A DNA stretch of 41,054 nucleotides from Acidobacteriota bacterium (GTDB lineage Bacteria; Acidobacteriota; Blastocatellia; Pyrinomonadales; Pyrinomonadaceae), in NCBI GenBank assembly GCA_003223975.1, contig QHXS01000047.1, positions 1-41,054 on the forward strand, written 5' to 3'. Each line of letters begins with the position of its first letter. The first letter of the stretch is position 1. Of this stretch, positions 11,396-22,861 are shown in pieces. The notes under the pieces are model-generated. The model worked only from the letters and a program-made list of their open reading frames with translations, was not told where the DNA came from and made no database searches. The position numbers and the translations under genes are program-made.

Positions 11396-13816
11396 CTACA
11401 GTTTGATTTCCGCAATTGTAGCGCCGTTGCCGCCTTGGTTGTCGGGGGCAAAGGCGAAGCGTTCGACGAGGTCGTGATTTTTCAGGAAATGATGAACGTA
11501 ATTTTTGAGCGCTCCGGTGCCGAAGCCGTGGATGATCCGCACGCGCTGCAGAGATGCCATGTACGCTTCGTCGATAAAACGGTCGAGTTCGTACTCGGCC
11601 TCGGCGGTCGTCTGGCCGATGAGGTTAAGTTCGGCGGCGACGTCGGGCGAGTCGATGGGTTTCGAGATCGATCTCCGGGAGGACACCCTCCCTATCGGTC
11701 GGGTTTCCGACTGTGCTGGGCGCAAGTTTTCTACTTTCTCGCGAAGTCGCATGTTGCCCACGAGAACTTCGGCGGTATCGCCGTCGAGCTTTTCGATCGT
11801 ACCGGTCGTGCCGAAACTCGTGACGACTCTTGAACCTATCGAGAGAACCACCCCGTCCGCCGAGGCGGCGTCCACCCCTCCTTCGTAAGGAGGGGAGCCG
11901 TGTGCTGATGCGCCGACTTTGGACATTGGACTTTGGGCCTTGGACACAAGGGCCCGGTTCATTTCCGCCTTTCTCGCTGATCGTTCTTTGTCGAGTTTAT
12001 TCTTGAGCGCTTTGTCTTCGAGGCCCGCAATAAATGCCTTTGATTGGCGTTCAAAAGATTCGACGGTTTCAGCGAGGGTTTGCTCGAACTCTTTTTGCCG
12101 GGCCTTTTCCTTTTTGACCGCCTCGACCTCAAGCCCGGCGTATTTCATTGCTGTGGCCTCTCGTTCCTCTTCGAGTGCGATGCGAAGGTCCTCGGCCTGT
12201 TTGGTTTCAGTCTGTAGTTTCAGCAAATATGCTTCGGCGTCCTGAGCAGAAATGTCCAGATTTTGTCGTGCGAATTCGATCACTTCGGGCAAAATGCCGA
12301 AACGGCTCGCGATCTGGATACCAGACGAAGCGCCGGCTAAACCAAGTAACAACTTATAGGTCGGCTGGAGCGTTTTTTCGTCGAACTCGACGGAGGCGTT
12401 GATCACGTTCTCATCATTCGCCGCATATATTTTAAGGCCGCGATAATGCGTCGACGCCATCACTTGCGCGCCGCAATTTCGGCGGAAATGATCGACGATC
12501 GCGACGCCAAGAGCCGAGCCTTCCTCCGGGTCGGTACCTGTTCCCGCCTCGTCCAGCAAAACGAGCGAAGGTGCCACGCATTCGCGCATCATCGCGGCGA
12601 TAGTGGACATGTGAGACGAGAACGTCGAAAGATTTGCAGCAAGCGACTGATGATCGCCGATATCTGCCAGGATCGATCGATAAAAGGGAACTCGCGCACT
12701 TTTCGCGGGAACCGGCAATCCGGATATCGCCATCAAGCTGAGCAATCCAGCTGTTTTAAGAACGACCGTCTTTCCTCCGGCATTGGCTCCGGAGATGATC
12801 ATGACTGAGTACTCCAATGTGAGTTTGAACGAATTCGGTACGACGCGGTCGATAACAAACTGGCCCCCCGCTGACGCAGGCGGTTCTGACAAGAGCGGAT
12901 GTCGGGCGTCTTCAAGCTCGAGCGTGCCGCTGTCGGAAATATCCGGCACGACGCAGGCGAATTTGCGGGCGAATTCGACTTTCGCCTTTATGAAATCGAG
13001 CTCCGCGACCGCTTCGACGGCCGCCTCGATGGCCGGAAGCTGTTCGCGAAGCTCTTCGGTCAAGGCGAACAAAATTCGGGCGACCTCGCGTTCTTCTTTG
13101 CCTTTAAGATTTTGGATCTCGTTGTTCGCCTCGATCGCTTCCAGCGGCTCGACGAAAACGGTCTGGCCGCTTGATGAAAAACCGTGTGCAACGCCGGTAA
13201 CCTTGCCGCGAAAGTCGGCTTTGACGGGGATCACGAACCGGTCGTTGCGGACCGTTACAAGCTCGTCCTGGATCGCGTCTCCGGCGGACCGCATTATCGA
13301 CTCAAGTGATTTTGTCAGACGCGCGCGTTGGCTGCTGATCTCGCGTCGGATCTTCGAAAGTTCGGGCGATGCCGAATCGTCGATCTCGCCGCTCGGCAAT
13401 AATTTCTTATTGATATTTTCGAGCGTGGCTAGCAGCGATGGCGGAATGTTCTCGACCTTCTGCCAAAGTATCGGCGCGGTTTCCTTTTCCGTCTGTATAG
13501 ACGCGCGCGCAAACAACGCCTGGCTACAGACCCGCGATACCTCGAGCAGTAGCGTCGGTTCCAGAGTGGCGTTCTTTATTTTAAGAATGGCAACAGCATC
13601 TGACGGGTCCTCAAGTCCACTGAACGACCATGAAACCTGCTTTTCCTGGTTCAGTACGATCGTTTCCGAAATCGCGGCGAGATCGGTTTCGAGTCCGTTT
13701 CGGTTGGTTTTTGGCCGCAAATCGCTAAACCGCGCCTCACCCATCGGCGTTTGCGCGTTACGGCTTACAAGCTCGAGGAGCTTTGCGAATTCCAATGTTT
13801 CCAACGAAAAACTCAT
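11396..13816 (-). CDS. mutS2: MutS2 ATPase/Smr-domain protein
   Basis: The 806-residue protein starts with the MutS2 core (SLETLEFAKLLELV). The clamp and lever regions carry the FVEPLEAIEANNEIQNLKG signature. The ABC-type ATPase has Walker A ISGANAGGKTVVLKT and Walker B/signature LLDEAGTGTDPEEGSALG. A coiled coil (about 520-630) and a small KOW-like beta domain (about 657-700) follow. A C-terminal Smr nuclease domain (about 725-806) has DLxG-type NLIGQT, a HGFGTGAL motif and the closing NGATIAEIKL. MutS2 acts on branched DNA and on stalled or collided ribosomes. It is longer than the usual 780 or so residues because of two repeat-derived insertions flanking the KOW-like domain. Its ATG overlaps the stop of the upstream DCC gene (ATGA). 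Confidence 0.94.
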   Translation of the reverse strand: MSFSLETLEFAKLLELVSRNAQTPMGEARFSDLRPKTNRNGLETDLAAISETIVLNQEKQVSWSFSGLEDPSDAVAILKIKNATLEPTLLLEVSRVCSQALFARASIQTEKETAPILWQKVENIPPSLLATLENINKKLLPSGEIDDSASPELSKIRREISSQRARLTKSLESIMRSAGDAIQDELVTVRNDRFVIPVKADFRGKVTGVAHGFSSSGQTVFVEPLEAIEANNEIQNLKGKEEREVARILFALTEELREQLPAIEAAVEAVAELDFIKAKVEFARKFACVVPDISDSGTLELEDARHPLLSEPPASAGGQFVIDRVVPNSFKLTLEYSVMIISGANAGGKTVVLKTAGLLSLMAISGLPVPAKSARVPFYRSILADIGDHQSLAANLSTFSSHMSTIAAMMRECVAPSLVLLDEAGTGTDPEEGSALGVAIVDHFRRNCGAQVMASTHYRGLKIYAANDENVINASVEFDEKTLQPTYKLLLGLAGASSGIQIASRFGILPEVIEFARQNLDISAQDAEAYLLKLQTETKQAEDLRIALEEEREATAMKYAGLEVEAVKKEKARQKEFEQTLAETVESFERQSKAFIAGLEDKALKNKLDKERSARKAEMNRALVSKAQSPMSKVGASAHGSPPYEGGVDAASADGVVLSIGSRVVTSFGTTGTIEKLDGDTAEVLVGNMRLREKVENLRPAQSETRPIGRVSSRRSISKPIDSPDVAAELNLIGQTTAEAEYELDRFIDEAYMASLQRVRIIHGFGTGALKNYVHHFLKNHDLVERFAFAPDNQGGNGATIAEIKL
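11676..11713. repeat. Double-hairpin palindromic repeat inside mutS2 (second copy type)
   Basis: GGGAGG (11677-11682) pairs with CCTCCC (11687-11692), and GTCGG (11698-11702) pairs with CCGAC (11707-11711). Read on the minus strand it encodes the Arg/Ser-rich linker RPIGRVSSRRS between the KOW-like and Smr domains. Two adjacent GC-rich hairpins with no domain content suggest an inserted repetitive extragenic-palindrome-like element. Confidence 0.5.
11847..11899. repeat. Double-hairpin palindromic repeat inside mutS2 (first copy type)
   Basis: CCCCTCCTT (11875-11883) pairs perfectly with AAGGAGGGG (11887-11895) over 3 nt, next to CCGCC (11857-11861) paired with GGCGG (11864-11868). It is translated in frame as GSPPYEGGVDAASADG. 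That peptide is the typical product of a palindromic element seen in intergenic DNA of several uncultured lineages. It sits exactly between the coiled coil and the KOW-like domain. Confidence 0.6.
11918..11947. repeat. Short tandem TTGGAC-type repeat inside mutS2
   Basis: Four imperfect copies of a 7-8 bp unit (TTTGGACA, TTGGACT, TTTGGGCC, TTGGACA) run head to tail beside the palindromic element. They encode the low-complexity SKAQSPMSKV. Together with the element at 11847-11899 this makes about 100 bp of extra, in-frame, repeat-like sequence. Confidence 0.5.
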
Positions 13817-14205
13817 AAAAACCGTTCTCGCACGTCCGGCGTCGGGATCATGCAGGCGTCCTGCCGGCCGAAAAGTTTGTAGCGATATTTAGCAAACAGT
13901 TTGTACGCAACGTCGCGGATCGGCCGAGGCACTATCATGACCGCGTAAAAAATAGGCCACGGTCGGTCCAGACGCCTTGCGATCTTTAATGCGGCGGTCG
14001 AGTGGACGTAGGCATGGTCATCCTCTACCAATACTATCGAATCCGTTTTTGCTGGATCGATCCCATGCTTCACCGTTAACTGTTCGCCGATTTCAGACTG
14101 CAATGGCGCAAACTTGAAATAACCGGCCTTATCGCGGGCAATGACGAAATTGACCGCGCCATTACAAAAGTTGCACACGCCGTCAAAAAGGACCGTTGCC
14201 ACCAT
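13813..14205 (-). CDS. DCC family thiol-disulfide oxidoreductase (DUF393)
   Basis: The 130-residue protein shows the DUF393 signature LFDGVCNFCNGAVNFVIARD at its N-terminus. This contains a CxxC pair (Cys-Asn-Phe-Cys) in a thioredoxin-like fold. It continues with FAPLQSEIGEQL, a SIVLVEDD strand, and the late W-P-I-F-Y and YRYKLFGR segments that close the family domain. No signal peptide is seen, so it should be cytoplasmic. Such proteins are predicted redox enzymes with no settled substrate. Its TGA overlaps the mutS2 ATG (ATGA), giving translational coupling, and it is the first gene of the minus-strand run that ends with rpoD. A 121-bp spacer separates it from the divergent amidohydrolase operon and must hold both promoters. 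Confidence 0.88.
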   Translation of the reverse strand: MVATVLFDGVCNFCNGAVNFVIARDKAGYFKFAPLQSEIGEQLTVKHGIDPAKTDSIVLVEDDHAYVHSTAALKIARRLDRPWPIFYAVMIVPRPIRDVAYKLFAKYRYKLFGRQDACMIPTPDVRERFL

Positions 14206-14326: not shown

Positions 14327-16021
14327 ATGAAACTAAAGCTCTTTCTGTACGCTTTTGCGGCAATGAGTTTGTTTGGCGCGTTGGCAAACGGCCAATCGCT
14401 CGCCATTACGAACGCCCGTATCGTCACGGTTTCCGGCTCGGTCATCGAAAAGGGAACGGTTGTCGTCCGTGACGGGCTGATCCTGACAATCGGCGCCGAT
14501 GCAAAAACTCCTGCGGACGCGCAAGTCATTGACGCGACCGGATTGACCGTTTATCCAGGTTTCATCGATGCGCTTTCGAGCGCCGGTCTGCAGGCGAGGA
14601 CGACTACTCCAGCTCCCGGTGGGCAAGGCGGCGGCCAGCAAGCGGCCCAACAGGCGGCCGCACAAGCGGCGCCTTCAAATTCGAATTACGGCTTCGGCAT
14701 CAGACCGGAAGTTTCCGCTGTCGACGACCTTCGAGGCGGCGACACACAATTCGACGCGATTCGAAATGCGGGATTCACCTCAGCGGTGACAGTTGGACGA
14801 ACGGGGATTTTCAATGGCCGTTCGGCGATTATCAATCTCGCCGGTGACAGTGTTTCGGCGATGCTGATCAAAGAGCCATATGCAGAACATATTTCATTCA
14901 CCACGGTTGCAGGCTATCCCGGCTCTTTGTTGGGGACGTTTTCCGCTCTACGCCAAATGCTGCTGGATGCAAGACGGCTGGAGGACTGGCAAAAGGCATA
15001 TGCAGCAAACCCAAAAGGAATGAAGCGGCCGGACGACGACAAATCGCTTGAGGCCTTGATCCCGCTTCTTAACCGCGAAATGCCGGTCGTATTCAATGCG
15101 AATACCGAAAACGAGATCGTACGGGCGCTCGATCTGGCGAAGGAATTCAACCTGAAGGCGATCATCGCCGGCGGTCAGGAAGCAGGTAAAGTCGCCGAAC
15201 GTTTAAAATCGCAAAACGTGCCGGTACTGCTGTCGTTGAATTTTCCGAAACGAACCGCAGCGGCAAACCCGGAGGCGGATCCTGAAAATCTTTCGACATT
15301 GCGATTTCGAGCGGAGGTTCCAAAGACAGCAGCCCGGCTTTCGCAGGCCGGGGTAAAATTCGCCTTTCAATCCGGCGGCTTGACCGCCATGAATGATTTC
15401 TTCGTGAATGCTGGAAAATCTGTTGAGAACGGACTTACGAAAGACGCGGCTATCCGCGCGATGACGCTTTCATCTGCCGAGATCCTTGACGTCAGCGACA
15501 GGCTCGGATCGATAGAAACCGGCAAGATCGCGAATCTCACCATCGTGAAAAATGACGTGTTTGCGACCGATCGATTTGTACCATATACCGTGGTTGACGG
15601 AAAACTTTTCGAGCAGAAGGAACCGGTTCGAGCTCCCGTCGGCGGCCGTGGCCCAGGCGGCCAACGTGGTGGCGGAGCAAATCCGGGCGCGGCGGCACCG
15701 GCAGCTGCAATGCCGGCCGTGGCGAACGTCGCCGGTACCTATAACATTACGATCGATGTGCCCGGTCAAGTAGTTTCAGGCACTTTAGTTTTGACACAGC
15801 AGGGCGATGTGATCAACGGCACAATGACGACTCAACTCGGTGTTACACAGATCCGAAACGGACGTGCATTTCCAGACGGATTTGCTTTCGCCGCAGCGGT
15901 CGAGTTTGGCGGCGCAACCATCGATATCGCGGTCAAAGCGACGGTCACCGGAAACATTTTGAACGGCACGATCGACTCGCCGCAAGGCGCTGTCCCGATC
16001 ACTGGCACAAAGCTTCCATAG
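14327..16021 (+). CDS. Secreted amidohydrolase-fold protein lacking metal ligands
   Basis: The frame is open from 14141, but I start at the ATG at 14327. It begins a good signal peptide (MKLKLFLYAFAAMSLFGALA, cleaved after NGQ), and the upstream part overlaps the divergent DCC gene. The product is 564 residues. The amidohydrolase composite domain is plain (ITNARIVTVSGSVIEKGTVVV, then AQVIDATGLTVYPGFIDA). However, the HxH that should follow PGFIDA is replaced by LSS, and no His-rich strand ends are seen. A Gln/Ala/Gly-rich linker (about 90-120) and a Gly-rich segment near 430 flank variable regions. The last 90 or so residues form an extra beta domain starting GTYNITIDVPGQ. It is the first of three tandem paralogues. 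Catalysis by the usual binuclear centre looks impossible, so a binding or partner role is inferred. Confidence 0.8.
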   Translation: MKLKLFLYAFAAMSLFGALANGQSLAITNARIVTVSGSVIEKGTVVVRDGLILTIGADAKTPADAQVIDATGLTVYPGFIDALSSAGLQARTTTPAPGGQGGGQQAAQQAAAQAAPSNSNYGFGIRPEVSAVDDLRGGDTQFDAIRNAGFTSAVTVGRTGIFNGRSAIINLAGDSVSAMLIKEPYAEHISFTTVAGYPGSLLGTFSALRQMLLDARRLEDWQKAYAANPKGMKRPDDDKSLEALIPLLNREMPVVFNANTENEIVRALDLAKEFNLKAIIAGGQEAGKVAERLKSQNVPVLLSLNFPKRTAAANPEADPENLSTLRFRAEVPKTAARLSQAGVKFAFQSGGLTAMNDFFVNAGKSVENGLTKDAAIRAMTLSSAEILDVSDRLGSIETGKIANLTIVKNDVFATDRFVPYTVVDGKLFEQKEPVRAPVGGRGPGGQRGGGANPGAAAPAAAMPAVANVAGTYNITIDVPGQVVSGTLVLTQQGDVINGTMTTQLGVTQIRNGRAFPDGFAFAAAVEFGGATIDIAVKATVTGNILNGTIDSPQGAVPITGTKLP

Positions 16022-16041
16022 GTTTGAAAGGAAATAATCGT

Positions 16042-17436
16042 ATGAAACGAATTCTAAATCTCACGGTTACTGCAAGTCTCGTCATTGCGTTCGGCGTTAT
16101 TGCCAAAGCACAGTCCGGCGGCAATGTTTTGATAAAAAATGCGACCGTTATGACGGCGGCAAAAGGTACGCTCGAAAATACGGACATTCTCGTCACGAAC
16201 GGCAAGATCGCAAAGATCGGCAAAAATATTGCCGCTCCGGCTAACGCCAAGGTGATCGACGCCACGGGTAAATATGTTTCACCCGGCATAATCGACGCGC
16301 ACTCGCATTCGATGCTCGACGCCATCAATGAAGGTTCACTGGCAGTGACATCGATGGTGCGAACGCGCGACGTTATCGACCCGAAAGACGTTGCGATCTA
16401 TCGCGCGCTCGCGGGCGGGGTTACTTCTGCGCTGCTGCTTCATGGTTCTGCAAACCCGATCGGCGGGCAAAGCACGACGGTGAAATTCAAATGGGGCCGA
16501 CCGGCAGACGAATTTCCGATCGAAGGCGCGCCGCCGGGGATCAAATTCGCACTCGGCGAAAACGTCAAGCGTTCAAATTTCACCCCTCAGGCTGGGCAGA
16601 CGCCGCGATACCCGCGTACCCGCATGGGTACGATGGAAGTTCTCCGCGACGCGTTCCGTCGTGCAAAGGATTACAAACAGTCCTTAGACGATTTCAAAGC
16701 CGGCAAAACTAAAGTTCCGCCGCGCCGCGATCTCGAACTTGAACCGCTTGTCGAGGTCCTCGAAGGCAAACGTCTCGTTCACTGCCACGGCTATCGCTCG
16801 GACGAACACCTCAATTTGATGTTGCTCGCGGACGAATTCGGTTTCCGGATCGCGACGCTTCAACATGCACTTGAGGCGTACAAGATCGCTCCAGAGGTCG
16901 CCAAACGCGGGACTGGGGCATCGATCTTCGCCGATAGCTGGAGCTATAAGCTCGAGGCTTACGATTCGATCCCTTATAACGGATACATCCTTTGGAAAAA
17001 TGGCGTGCTGGTTTCGATCAATTCGGATTCCGACGAACGTATGCGCCGGCTTAATCTTGATGCCGCGAAAATGGAAAAGTACGGCGGTGTTCCCGAGGAA
17101 GAAGCGCTGAAAATGATCACGCTCAATCCCGCGAAGCAACTCGGGATCGACAAAAGGACCGGTTCGATCGAGCAGGGAAAGGATGGCGATATCCTGATCT
17201 GGAATGTGCATCCGTTTAGCCCGTATTCGCACGTCGAAATGACGCTGATCGAAGGTGATGTTTATTTCGATCGCGCAAAGGACATTGCGAATCGTGAAGT
17301 ACTAGCGAAGGAACGCGAGGCGCTCGAAAAGCTTGATATGAATAAGGCTCCGGGCGCCGGCGGCACCCCGCCGCGTATCCCCGCTGAGCGTCGCATCGCT
17401 GATCGTGATGAGGCGGACAGGGGGGACAACCGATGA
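16042..17436 (+). CDS. Secreted metal-dependent amidohydrolase
   Basis: The 464-residue protein starts at the ATG at 16042, preceded by AAGGAA, not at an upstream TTG. It has a signal peptide (MKRILNLTVTASLVIAFGVIAKA). The metal-binding set of the imidazolonepropionase-like amidohydrolases is intact: HxH in SPGIIDAHSHS (His87, His89), a His in LVHCHGY, a His in TLQHALEAY, and the catalytic Asp region SINSDSDERMRR. The C-terminal composite sheet shows GSIEQGKDGDILIWN. It should hydrolyse an amide or cyclic amide bond in the periplasm, perhaps on a peptide-like substrate. The substrate cannot be read from sequence. It lies 20 bp after the first paralogue and overlaps the third by ATGA, so all three are one operon. 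It is the only one of the trio with a complete active site. Confidence 0.88.
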   Translation: MKRILNLTVTASLVIAFGVIAKAQSGGNVLIKNATVMTAAKGTLENTDILVTNGKIAKIGKNIAAPANAKVIDATGKYVSPGIIDAHSHSMLDAINEGSLAVTSMVRTRDVIDPKDVAIYRALAGGVTSALLLHGSANPIGGQSTTVKFKWGRPADEFPIEGAPPGIKFALGENVKRSNFTPQAGQTPRYPRTRMGTMEVLRDAFRRAKDYKQSLDDFKAGKTKVPPRRDLELEPLVEVLEGKRLVHCHGYRSDEHLNLMLLADEFGFRIATLQHALEAYKIAPEVAKRGTGASIFADSWSYKLEAYDSIPYNGYILWKNGVLVSINSDSDERMRRLNLDAAKMEKYGGVPEEEALKMITLNPAKQLGIDKRTGSIEQGKDGDILIWNVHPFSPYSHVEMTLIEGDVYFDRAKDIANREVLAKEREALEKLDMNKAPGAGGTPPRIPAERRIADRDEADRGDNR

Positions 17437-18836
17437 GATTTCAGAGTTCAGATTTTAGATTTCAGGTCGATATGAAAAAAAGGTTTATTCCCCTGACCGT
17501 TGCAATTCTGGTTGCGGCCAATTTTGCGTTCTCACAAAATGACGGAGCAGAACAAAACAAAACCGGACGAGCGGGCACGTTTGCGATCATCAATGCACGC
17601 ATTGTCACCGTGTCGGGCGCGGTTATCGAGAATGGCAATGTGATCATCCAGAACGGCAAGATCGCGGCAGTAGGCGCCGGTGCTTCGGTTCCTAGCGGCG
17701 CGGAAAAGATCGACGGAAAGGGCCTGACGGTGTTTCCAGGAATGATCGATGCCGGGACAAATCTCGGCCTGACGGAGATCGGACAAGGCCTAAACGCATC
17801 TGTCGATACCGCCGAAGTCGGAAATATAAACGCGAACGCTAAAGCCTTCACGGGCGTTAATCCGCACTCGGCGCACGTAAACGTGACGCGCGTTAACGGC
17901 ATAACGACCGTCGTTTCAAGTCCGACCGGTGGGCTTATCTCCGGCCAGGCGACCTTGATCAATCTTGTGGGTTCGACTCAGGCTGAGATGGCCATCGAGC
18001 CGCTCGCCGGCCTGGTGGTCAACTTTCCGCGTATCGCCCAATTCGGCGGGTTTGGCGGCGGCGGCGGTTTTGGGGGCCAAGGCCTGCAGATCGATTTCAA
18101 CGAAGCGATCAAACGCCGCGATACGCAGATCGACGAACTTAGGAAGGCGTTCAAAAGTGCCGAGAATTATGGCCGGGCGATGGACGCTTATGCAAAGGAC
18201 AAGACGCTGCCGGCGGTACTGACCGACCTAAAGTTCGAAGCGATGGTGCCGTACGTCCGCGGAGAAAAGGTGATCTTCTTTACCGCAGAACGCGAGCGTG
18301 ATATTCGCGCGGTCGCGAAATTTGTTGCCGAAATGAAGGTCAAAGGGATCATCGTCGGCGGGCAGGAAGCATGGAAAGCGGCAGACGAACTTAAGAAGAA
18401 CAACATCGCCGTTATCTATACCAACATTTATTCTTTGCCGGTTCGTGAAGACGATCCTTACGACAGCCTTTATGAGGCACCTTCGAAAATGCAGCAGGCA
18501 GGGATTAAATACTGCATCTCGACAGGCGAAGCTGGTCCGGAAGTTCGCGATCTGCCGTATCACGCGGGTCTTGCAAGCTCATTCGGACTCTCGAAGGAAG
18601 ACGCTCTTAAATCTGTCACATTATATCCGGCACAGATCCTCGGGGTGGCCGATAAACTCGGTTCGATCGAGGTTGGCAAGATGGCGAATGTCGTTGTGAC
18701 AGACGGCGATATGCTCGACCCAAGAACGAACGTTAAGTATTTGTTCATCGAGGGTCGCATGCTGCCGTTAACGAGCCGCCACACCGAGCTGTTCGACAGC
18801 TTCAAGGACCGCAAATCGAGCGATATTTTGCCGTAG
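17433..18836 (+). CDS. Secreted amidohydrolase-fold protein lacking metal ligands, with repeat-derived leader
   Basis: The ATG at 17433 overlaps the previous stop (ATGA) and has AGGGGGG 8 nt upstream, the best start signal. Yet the natural signal peptide begins at the second Met (ATG 17472, MKKRFIPLTVAILVAANFAF). The 13 residues before it are encoded by a short tandem repeat. The 467-residue product has the amidohydrolase frame (IINARIVTVSGAVIENGNVII, LTVFPGMIDAGTNLG). The HxH after PGMIDA is lost (GTN), and other metal ligands are not recognisable. A Gly/Phe-rich loop lies near residues 205-215. The C-terminal sheet GSIEVGKMANVVVTDG is intact. It is a close relative of the first gene of the operon and probably works with the intact second one, for example as a pseudoenzyme subunit; that is inference. 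Confidence 0.8.
   Translation: MRFQSSDFRFQVDMKKRFIPLTVAILVAANFAFSQNDGAEQNKTGRAGTFAIINARIVTVSGAVIENGNVIIQNGKIAAVGAGASVPSGAEKIDGKGLTVFPGMIDAGTNLGLTEIGQGLNASVDTAEVGNINANAKAFTGVNPHSAHVNVTRVNGITTVVSSPTGGLISGQATLINLVGSTQAEMAIEPLAGLVVNFPRIAQFGGFGGGGGFGGQGLQIDFNEAIKRRDTQIDELRKAFKSAENYGRAMDAYAKDKTLPAVLTDLKFEAMVPYVRGEKVIFFTAERERDIRAVAKFVAEMKVKGIIVGGQEAWKAADELKKNNIAVIYTNIYSLPVREDDPYDSLYEAPSKMQQAGIKYCISTGEAGPEVRDLPYHAGLASSFGLSKEDALKSVTLYPAQILGVADKLGSIEVGKMANVVVTDGDMLDPRTNVKYLFIEGRMLPLTSRHTELFDSFKDRKSSDILP
17437..17466. repeat. TTCAGA-type short tandem repeat at a gene start
   Basis: Imperfect 7-8 bp units (TTTCAGA, GTTCAGA, TTTTAGA, TTTCAGG) run in tandem between the ATG at 17433 and the signal-peptide ATG at 17472. 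They are translated as RFQSSDFRFQ. This word is typical of dispersed intergenic filler repeats rather than of secreted proteins. Confidence 0.5.
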
Positions 18837-18861
18837 GGATCGATCATCGATAAAACAAAAG

Positions 18862-18888
18862 GGACGGCGTGAATGCCGTCCTCTTTTT
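18862..18888 (+). terminator. Terminator between the amidohydrolase operon and msrB (bidirectional)
   Basis: GGACGGC (18862-18868) pairs perfectly with GCCGTCC (18875-18881) over a 6-nt loop and is followed by TCTTTTTATT. On the other strand the tail is CTTTTGTTTT, so it can also end the convergent msrB transcript. Confidence 0.85.
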
Positions 18889-19360
18889 ATTCGGTCTTTT
18901 GCGGGATCTCTTCGCCGTCTTGAAAGAACTCCAGCGACGCGGAATTTAGACAGTATCGGTTGCCTGTTGGCGGCGGGCCGTCGGGGAAAACATGTCCCTG
19001 GTGGCTGCCGCAACGCGCGCAGCGTATCTCGACGCGCCGCATTCCGTAGCTGACGTCTTCGATCTCCCTCAGATGATCTTTGTCGAATGGCGTGTAAAAT
19101 GATGGCCAGCCGGTGCCGGAATTGAACTTGTGTTTCGACGAAAACAGCGGCAGGCCGCACAGCCTGCACGCGTAAGTCCCGTCCATTTTGTTATCAAGCA
19201 GCGTTCCGCAAAATGGCGCCTCGGTTCCGTGGTTCAGCAGTATGCGGCGTTCTTCATCATTCAGATCCTCTGCAAGCCGCTCGATATCTTCTTGCGAAAG
19301 GGGTGTGACATTGTAACCCGCATCCGAGATCCGTTCCTCTTTCATCTTCGATATTTCCAT
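18887..19360 (-). CDS. msrB: Peptide-methionine (R)-S-oxide reductase
   Basis: The 157-residue protein reduces R-methionine sulfoxide in proteins, probably in the cytoplasm since no signal peptide is present. It carries all family marks: two zinc-binding pairs (CRLCG and CARCG), the substrate-binding FNSGTGWPSF and the SHQGHVFPDGP stretch, and the catalytic Cys in RYCLNSASLEF. I chose the ATG at 19360. An in-frame TTG at 19390 would add ten residues without a better ribosome binding site, and the Met five codons further in is also possible. It is a single gene, convergent with the amidohydrolase operon and divergent from the zincin-like gene. Confidence 0.94.
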   Translation of the reverse strand: MEISKMKEERISDAGYNVTPLSQEDIERLAEDLNDEERRILLNHGTEAPFCGTLLDNKMDGTYACRLCGLPLFSSKHKFNSGTGWPSFYTPFDKDHLREIEDVSYGMRRVEIRCARCGSHQGHVFPDGPPPTGNRYCLNSASLEFFQDGEEIPQKTE

Positions 19361-19497
19361 TTCTATCTCTTGTCCTGCGGCGGCGTCCAAATCCGTCTTA
19401 TTGCTTGACGGAAAAGATTTCGTCGCACGGTCGCTATTTTAATAAAACTATCACATTGCCGCCGTGATTTTGAATTTATACAGGAGATCAAAAAGCA

Positions 19498-22110: not shown

Positions 22111-22249
22111 AAAGAATGACCTTGAAAATAATGCGTGTGATATGCAACACTAGTTTTAGCAAACAAAATTTCCCCAGCAAAGTTTCCAGCCCCGTTTGTT
22201 GTCCACTCTCCCGTGTCCAGCCAAAATACGCACAAGGAGCATCGGAAAA

Positions 22250-22861
22250 ATGAACGAAGTTGTCCCCGGTCAAACATTTAAGAAATCTACAGTCGACGAT
22301 TATCTTGCTTCGGAACGTCAAAGCGGCGCGAAGAACGAGTTTGTTAACGGAAAGGTCATCGGCCGCTCGGGTTCAAATCGATGGCATAACCTTATTGTCT
22401 CGAATGTGGCTATCGGTATCGGCAGCCGTCTTCATGGCCATAAATGCGAGATCTATATTGCGAATATTCGCGTTAAACTTGAAAACAATTCGATTTGTTA
22501 CCCGGACGTTGCCATTGTCAACGGCGAACCAGGCTTTACAGACAATCGCCTCGACCTTTTGCTCAATCCCACCGTTATTGTCGAGGTTACATCAAACGAT
22601 ATGCATGCCTCGGCAAAAACCACGAAGCTTGAAAGTTTTCTTGCTATGAGCAGCATCAAGGAGTGCATGATGATCCGGGAAGACGAGATGCGCATCGAGC
22701 ACTACTCAAAGCAGAACCCGAAACAATGGCTCTATAAGATATATAACGAGCGCGACGACGTCATTTCGCTCGATTCGATCAATTGCAAGATCTCGCTGCA
22801 GGAGATCTATTCGCAGGTCAAGCTTCGACATACTGAGTTTAGTTCGAAAGCCGTAAACTAG
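22250..22861 (+). CDS. Uma2-family (DUF820) restriction-endonuclease-fold protein
   Basis: The 203-residue protein starts at the ATG at 22250, 10 nt after AAGGAG; the open frame further upstream is not used. It has the DUF820/Uma2 core: TVDDYLASERQSGAKNEFVNG, an N-terminal ISNVAIGIG-type helix, CYPDVAIVNGEP with the first catalytic Asp, and LNPTVIVEVTS with the Glu of the PD-(D/E)xK-like site, then LESFLAMSSIKECMMI. Members are abundant in cyanobacteria and other environmental bacteria, often as solitary genes of unknown role with transposon-like spread. It stands alone here, divergent from lpxD. Its TAG stop overlaps, on the other strand, the stop of a possible small ORF. Confidence 0.85.
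   Translation: MNEVVPGQTFKKSTVDDYLASERQSGAKNEFVNGKVIGRSGSNRWHNLIVSNVAIGIGSRLHGHKCEIYIANIRVKLENNSICYPDVAIVNGEPGFTDNRLDLLLNPTVIVEVTSNDMHASAKTTKLESFLAMSSIKECMMIREDEMRIEHYSKQNPKQWLYKIYNERDDVISLDSINCKISLQEIYSQVKLRHTEFSSKAVN

Follow-up and report, generated by a model that had tools for sequence, protein, structure and literature searches.

Enzymes that combine one active chain with one dead sister chain are already known. The closest precedents for the locus considered here are two. In Pseudomonas aeruginosa, a pseudo-dihydroorotase is inactive, yet its partner ATCase requires it for activity (PMC7053772). AibH1H2 is a two-gene enzyme in which AibH2 is catalytic and has been likened to a hydroxylase that was repurposed within the amidohydrolase superfamily; a structural role is ascribed to AibH1, yet it binds Mn (PMC12141560; PMC10401708).

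How does the present locus compare? It carries three amidohydrolase-fold genes, termed A, B and C, of which only B has retained the metal ligands. Like the Pseudomonas system, the trio places an apparently inactive amidohydrolase-superfamily chain beside an active partner (PMC7053772). However, in that account the active partner of the pseudo-dihydroorotase is a transcarbamoylase of another fold, whereas the partners in the trio are sister amidohydrolases; the trio also has two apparently dead chains, and all of its chains are predicted to be exported. The transcarbamoylase that marks an ATCase/pseudo-dihydroorotase complex is absent, the partner genes of the trio being amidohydrolases. AibH1H2, likened here by its description only, differs in that it comprises two genes and carries out a hydroxylation, and in that AibH1 has kept the ability to bind Mn. 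In the literature searched, which took in few subscription journals and no preprints, no such dead amidohydrolase subunit and no such trio was found described.

The trio lies at positions 14327-18836 of the window, i.e. the whole stretch of 41,054 nucleotides from an Acidobacteriota bacterium that was analysed. The three genes are co-directional, on the forward strand, and each begins with a signal-peptide-type N-terminus. Gene A (14327..16021) encodes a putative exported pseudo-amidohydrolase of 564 aa with a C-terminal beta domain, gene B (16042..17436) a putative exported metal-dependent amidohydrolase, the only one of the three with metal ligands, and gene C (17433..18836) a putative exported pseudo-amidohydrolase of 467 aa; the assignments draw on Pfam Amidohydro_1 matches, together with orthologues for A and C and the ligands for B. 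The ATG of B at 16042 is preceded by GGAAAT, and the listed open reading frame opens at TTG 16024. Queries made with B began at 16039, three bases early and thus one residue longer, and the residue numbers of B used here are counted from 16039. C has an alternative start, an ATG at 17472, just ahead of its signal peptide. The original prediction had the genes joined by ATGA coupling and provided with separate signal peptides. The coupling holds for B and C, where the stop of B overlaps the start of C as ATGA, but not for A and B, which are 20 bases apart; the signal peptides are borne out by a hydrophobic stretch of the right type at the N-terminus of each of the three. The extra beta domain ascribed to A (15701..16018, + strand) is also present as a C-terminal extension. 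It had no Pfam family at E<=5, but its counterpart in L080, a homologue from Pontibacter ruber in which A and B are fused, is predicted to form eight beta strands (residues 436-525). Downstream, a terminator-like hairpin with a T-run (18861..18882, + strand) lies 3' of C, as a consensus match only.

All three proteins pass the curated Pfam Amidohydro_1 cut-off of 25 bits (A 39.2, B 62.3, C 42.3). No named NCBIfam equivalog (NagA, HutI, dihydroorotase, prolidase, hydantoinase and others) scored over its own cut-off among the 25 best of the 58, 78 and 58 families listed for A, B and C, respectively, and the best equivalog score of B was 72.5 bits vs. a cut-off of 371. The nearest solved structure for all three is 3ooq, a Thermotoga maritima amidohydrolase of unassigned function (E 1.1e-21 for A, 1.3e-67 for B and 2.1e-27 for C). 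It has the ligands and K169 in common with B but is a single active protein; the comparison with it is by sequence and structure alone.

Does the arrangement occur elsewhere, as the original prediction demanded? A search with B gave 178 confirmed loci, and the best 80 were taken. These best 80 of 178 come from Acidobacteriota, Gemmatimonadota, Bacteroidota, Armatimonadota and one KSB1 genome, and the order A-B-C on one strand is found in 80/80, as far as the contigs reach. An A orthologue is present in 76 and a C orthologue in 79 of these 80 loci, all five absences being at contig ends. Split frames occur in two loci (C of L032, B of L042); elsewhere the frames are open. Among 30 relatives, 24 have all three genes and five have none, so that co-occurrence is all-or-none with one exception, a 75%-complete, fragmented genome (G016) where A and C are present as fragments. 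Judged from these comparisons, the arrangement is real, old and widespread. For 26 of the 80 loci a Mantel test gave r of 0.92-0.95, a correlation that shows joint inheritance of A, B and C, not binding.

A broader count points to an asymmetry between the two partners. Of 149 acidobacterial genomes, 64 have B; the same 64 have C, and 51 of them have A. In the other 13, inspection of the regions showed that A is not beside B and C. A match to A that coincided with the C gene itself was not scored as A (G035, G051, G054, G091, G098, G134, G145, G160 and G162). Outside the 64, C-like matches are found in G020, where the match is a paralogue (C', see below), and in G134, where C is beside a B that is cut by the contig end; A occurs alone in G105 only, where the contig breaks off. 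B and C are thus a firm pair, and A is a frequent but not universal companion. The picture of two pseudoenzymes flanking one active enzyme stands as regards ligands and gene order, but A is dispensable in one lineage (13/64 genomes).

The loss of the metal site from A and C can be read directly in the sequence. At the HxH position, A has LSS (14573..14581), B has HSH (16300..16308; ligands H88 and H90) and C has GTN (17754..17762), all on the + strand, exactly as first noted. B also keeps the remaining His and Asp ligands, H250 (16786..16788) and H276 (16864..16866) and the catalytic/metal aspartate D330 (17026..17028), as well as K169 (16543..16545), a candidate bridging (carboxylated) lysine whose role is suggested by the superfamily and which is also found in 3ooq. 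The superfamily active-site pattern HxH, (K), H, H, D is thus present in B and absent from A and C. In a joint alignment of the loci (best 80 of 178), the five core ligands and K169 are kept in 80/80 B sequences. In the same set, 71 of 77 A sequences keep none of the five and six keep one (five A rows gapped at the HxH columns were scored as not kept); of 79 C sequences, 58 keep none, 15 one and six two. The residues that are best conserved in B, i.e. H88, H90, K169, H250, H276, D330, W301 and D299, are absent in both A and C. Could A or C have an alternative metal site, which would count against the original prediction? No conserved His or Cys column was found in 77 A or 79 C sequences, the commonest His column having His in 44/77 A and 52/79 C; a site made of carboxylates alone is conceivable in C. 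Nor is ligand loss a genome-wide habit, since HxH is retained in 10/10 other amidohydrolase frames read from the same genome.

A and C nevertheless have conserved residues of their own, as seen in separate family alignments from which stretches of <330 residues were left out (C of L032, B of L042, C of L066 and the loci truncated by a contig end). In C, the polar residues E115, D125, E128 and R153 are invariant in 79/79 and R372 is present in 74/79; in A, R209, Q210, D214 and R266 are conserved in 76-77 of 77. Values of dN/dS are 0.04-0.12 (window vs. six relatives, in comparisons with finite dS, with dS near or past saturation), and by this measure the pseudo-subunits A and C are under purifying selection.

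Fusions are frequent and of several kinds. Among 109 B rows there are 33 A-B fusions, 14 B-C fusions and one A-B-C fusion. In the best 80 of the 178 loci, A and B share one open frame in 30 (29 from Bacteroidota plus KSB1) and B and C share one in the Armatimonadota locus L073; acidobacterial genome stretches add 13 more B-C and three more A-B frames. The triple fusion, also from an acidobacterial genome stretch, is a single frame of 1377 residues (L138:519-4652, - strand) with A-, B- and C-like domains and HxH in the middle one only. One genome (G030) carries both kinds, A-B with C and A with B-C (L144, L145), and in L139 and L140 the order is B-C, then A. On a quick tree of the 109 B rows with some long branches, the fusion state has changed at least eight times. 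The export signals follow the fusions: signal-type N-termini are seen in 64/71 A, 43/45 B and 77/77 C when unfused, and inside fused chains a signal-type stretch occurs in 0/30 B and 0/1 C. That fusion has happened repeatedly, and in different arrangements, is the strongest argument for one functional body; from the A-B, B-C and A-B-C fusions it is very likely that the three proteins act together as a unit.

The natural A-B fusion L080 (1008 residues) was modelled with A and B rows aligned on their own halves. A pLDDT of 89.7 and a pTM of 0.87 were obtained, and the model suggests that the A and B halves pack in a defined way. The model of a B-C fusion had a pTM of 0.59 and is uninformative on B-C packing, because in the alignment every C row had been placed on the half that corresponds to B. 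In a fold look-up of the L080 model the match list was filled by the B half, with 3ooq at Z 45.3 and an rmsd of 1.9 over 367 residues. Next, with Z about 23, come the folds of isoaspartyl dipeptidase and of prolidase-like enzymes; isoaspartyl dipeptidase (Z 23.3, rmsd 3.4 over 294 residues) is tied with many other amidohydrolases.

How did the dead sisters originate? In a 94-row tree built from 26 of the 80 loci, A, B, C and the paralogues B' and C' form one clade each (SH-aLRT 99-100), and 3ooq joins B. A branch with support of 98 splits the ligand-bearing B, B' and 3ooq from the ligand-poor A, C and C'. Were the tree to be rooted on this branch, a single loss of the metal site would have preceded the division of the pseudo line. 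B' and C' constitute a second pair (L025-L030), in which B' has all ligands and is followed by C'; C' retains only the first His of HxH in 6/6. Each of the five relatives that lack the trio has this B'/C' pair.

Further active and pseudo pairs are found in L134-L137. Over 34 further loci, 35/35 complete active domains have 6/6 ligand letters, and in the 52 partner domains between 0 and 3 of the six are left. Those with three are found in L127, L128, L134, L135 and L137, so that some pseudo-domains are less worn than the A and C of the window. L127 and L128 are C partners in two A-less genomes. These two partners (L127:1175-3163 and L128:1952-3766, both - strand) read RHHRHD at the ligand columns, with His or Asp at 4/6; from these letters, a different metal site is possible there. 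A tandem array of three active and pseudo amidohydrolase pairs, the third pair being one open frame, is present in L120:1173-8870 (+ strand). The pairs in the wider family, together with the 13/64 genomes that have only B and C, suggest that an active and a pseudo chain (B and C) may be the basic unit of the family.

What, then, might the trio be? We consider it probable, from the sequence evidence taken together, that A, B and C together make up a single exported, heteromeric metal hydrolase in which B is the only subunit to catalyse and A and C are non-catalytic partners. The three would be made from one operon, each be exported by a signal peptide of its own, and join up in the periplasm; we infer this location, the mutual binding of the chains and the inactivity of A and C. 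B alone would bind metal, through HxH, H, H, D and probably the carboxylated lysine K169. Hydrolysis by a metal-activated water is the established mechanism in the amidohydrolase superfamily, and B would probably hydrolyse an amide or ester in this way. A and C would descend from the same enzyme family, with the metal site gone, and have been kept as non-catalytic partners that stabilize B or shape or gate its active site, A being a second pseudo-subunit added to the B and C pair. As to the class of substrate, a small amide or peptide is a guess by analogy; the peptide-like character is weakly hinted at by the isoaspartyl dipeptidase and prolidase-like folds that come next after 3ooq.

Several other roles for A and C have to be weighed against that of subunits. 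Loss of the metal ligands would fit tandem duplicates that are decaying, pseudogene-like, and functionless, but this is extremely improbable: frames are open in all but two loci, dN/dS is about 0.1, and A and C are kept in five phyla with residues invariant across their clades. Selection, conservation and phylum breadth rule decay out. Purifying selection on A and C would also fit two enzymes in their own right, each with a site that is free of metal or built from carboxylates only; the operon would then encode a short stepwise pathway whose members are joined or not. C has an invariant polar set that differs from that of B, A has its conserved R209, Q210, D214 and R266, and many of these residues, placed by sequence position, would be in loops at the barrel mouth. 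However, the residues that B conserves most are lost in both, and amidohydrolases are not known to function once the metal site is gone; we regard this explanation as unlikely. A and C might also be binding proteins or chaperones, not stable subunits, that capture substrate or assist the folding, export or metallation of B. Strict co-occurrence and signal peptides of their own are in keeping with such a role, as is a beta domain of A that is optional, but repeated covalent fusion in three arrangements fixes a 1:1:1 ratio, unlike the situation with most chaperones, and renders this role distinctly unlikely.

The hetero-oligomeric complex put forward in the original prediction is supported as the best reading of these genes, with two changes: the basic unit may be a pair, and A is not always present. 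It has points against it. Fusions and operons would also fit a pathway without binding, A is missing from 13/64 of the genomes with B and C, the invariant polar residues of C fit a pocket with a separate function, and some C partners (L127, L128) keep up to 3/6 ligand letters. A wider idea can be offered tentatively, as possible but doubtful. Exported hydrolases might exist widely as obligate assemblies of active and pseudo chains, in which one or two dead sisters of a metal-bearing chain complete or gate the active site; the pair would have arisen once and become trios, further pairs and single-chain fusions in several phyla, and the pseudo-subunits might offer another binding site by which substrate is sensed or positioned.

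The literature searched yielded no account of three sister amidohydrolases, two of them apparently dead, that occur as separate genes, as partial fusions and, once, as a single chain. Free chains, paired fusions, the triple fusion and the reduced pair provide natural constructs for the question of why cells keep dead copies. In public annotation the trio genes are presumably each called 'amidohydrolase family protein', and such names would have annotators count three enzymes where probably one exists.

Gene neighbours were compared across phyla, and none recurs from one phylum to another; the recurrent ones follow lineage synteny, and gene context therefore gives no clue to the substrate. In the window, genes for a DCC1-like thiol-disulfide oxidoreductase (13813-14205, - strand) and an MsrB-type (SelR) protein (18887-19390, - strand) lie on either side of the trio, and both recur next to it in Acidobacteriota. 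A gene for a Uma2-family putative endonuclease (22196-22861, + strand) also accompanies the trio at nine further loci from Acidobacteriota. In Bacteroidota, a DUF3810 gene is found near the trio in 16 loci (L106:2727-4220, + strand, and 15 others); in 15 of these 16 it lies directly upstream of the A-B fusion on the same strand, and its product displays, by eye, an HExxH-like motif.
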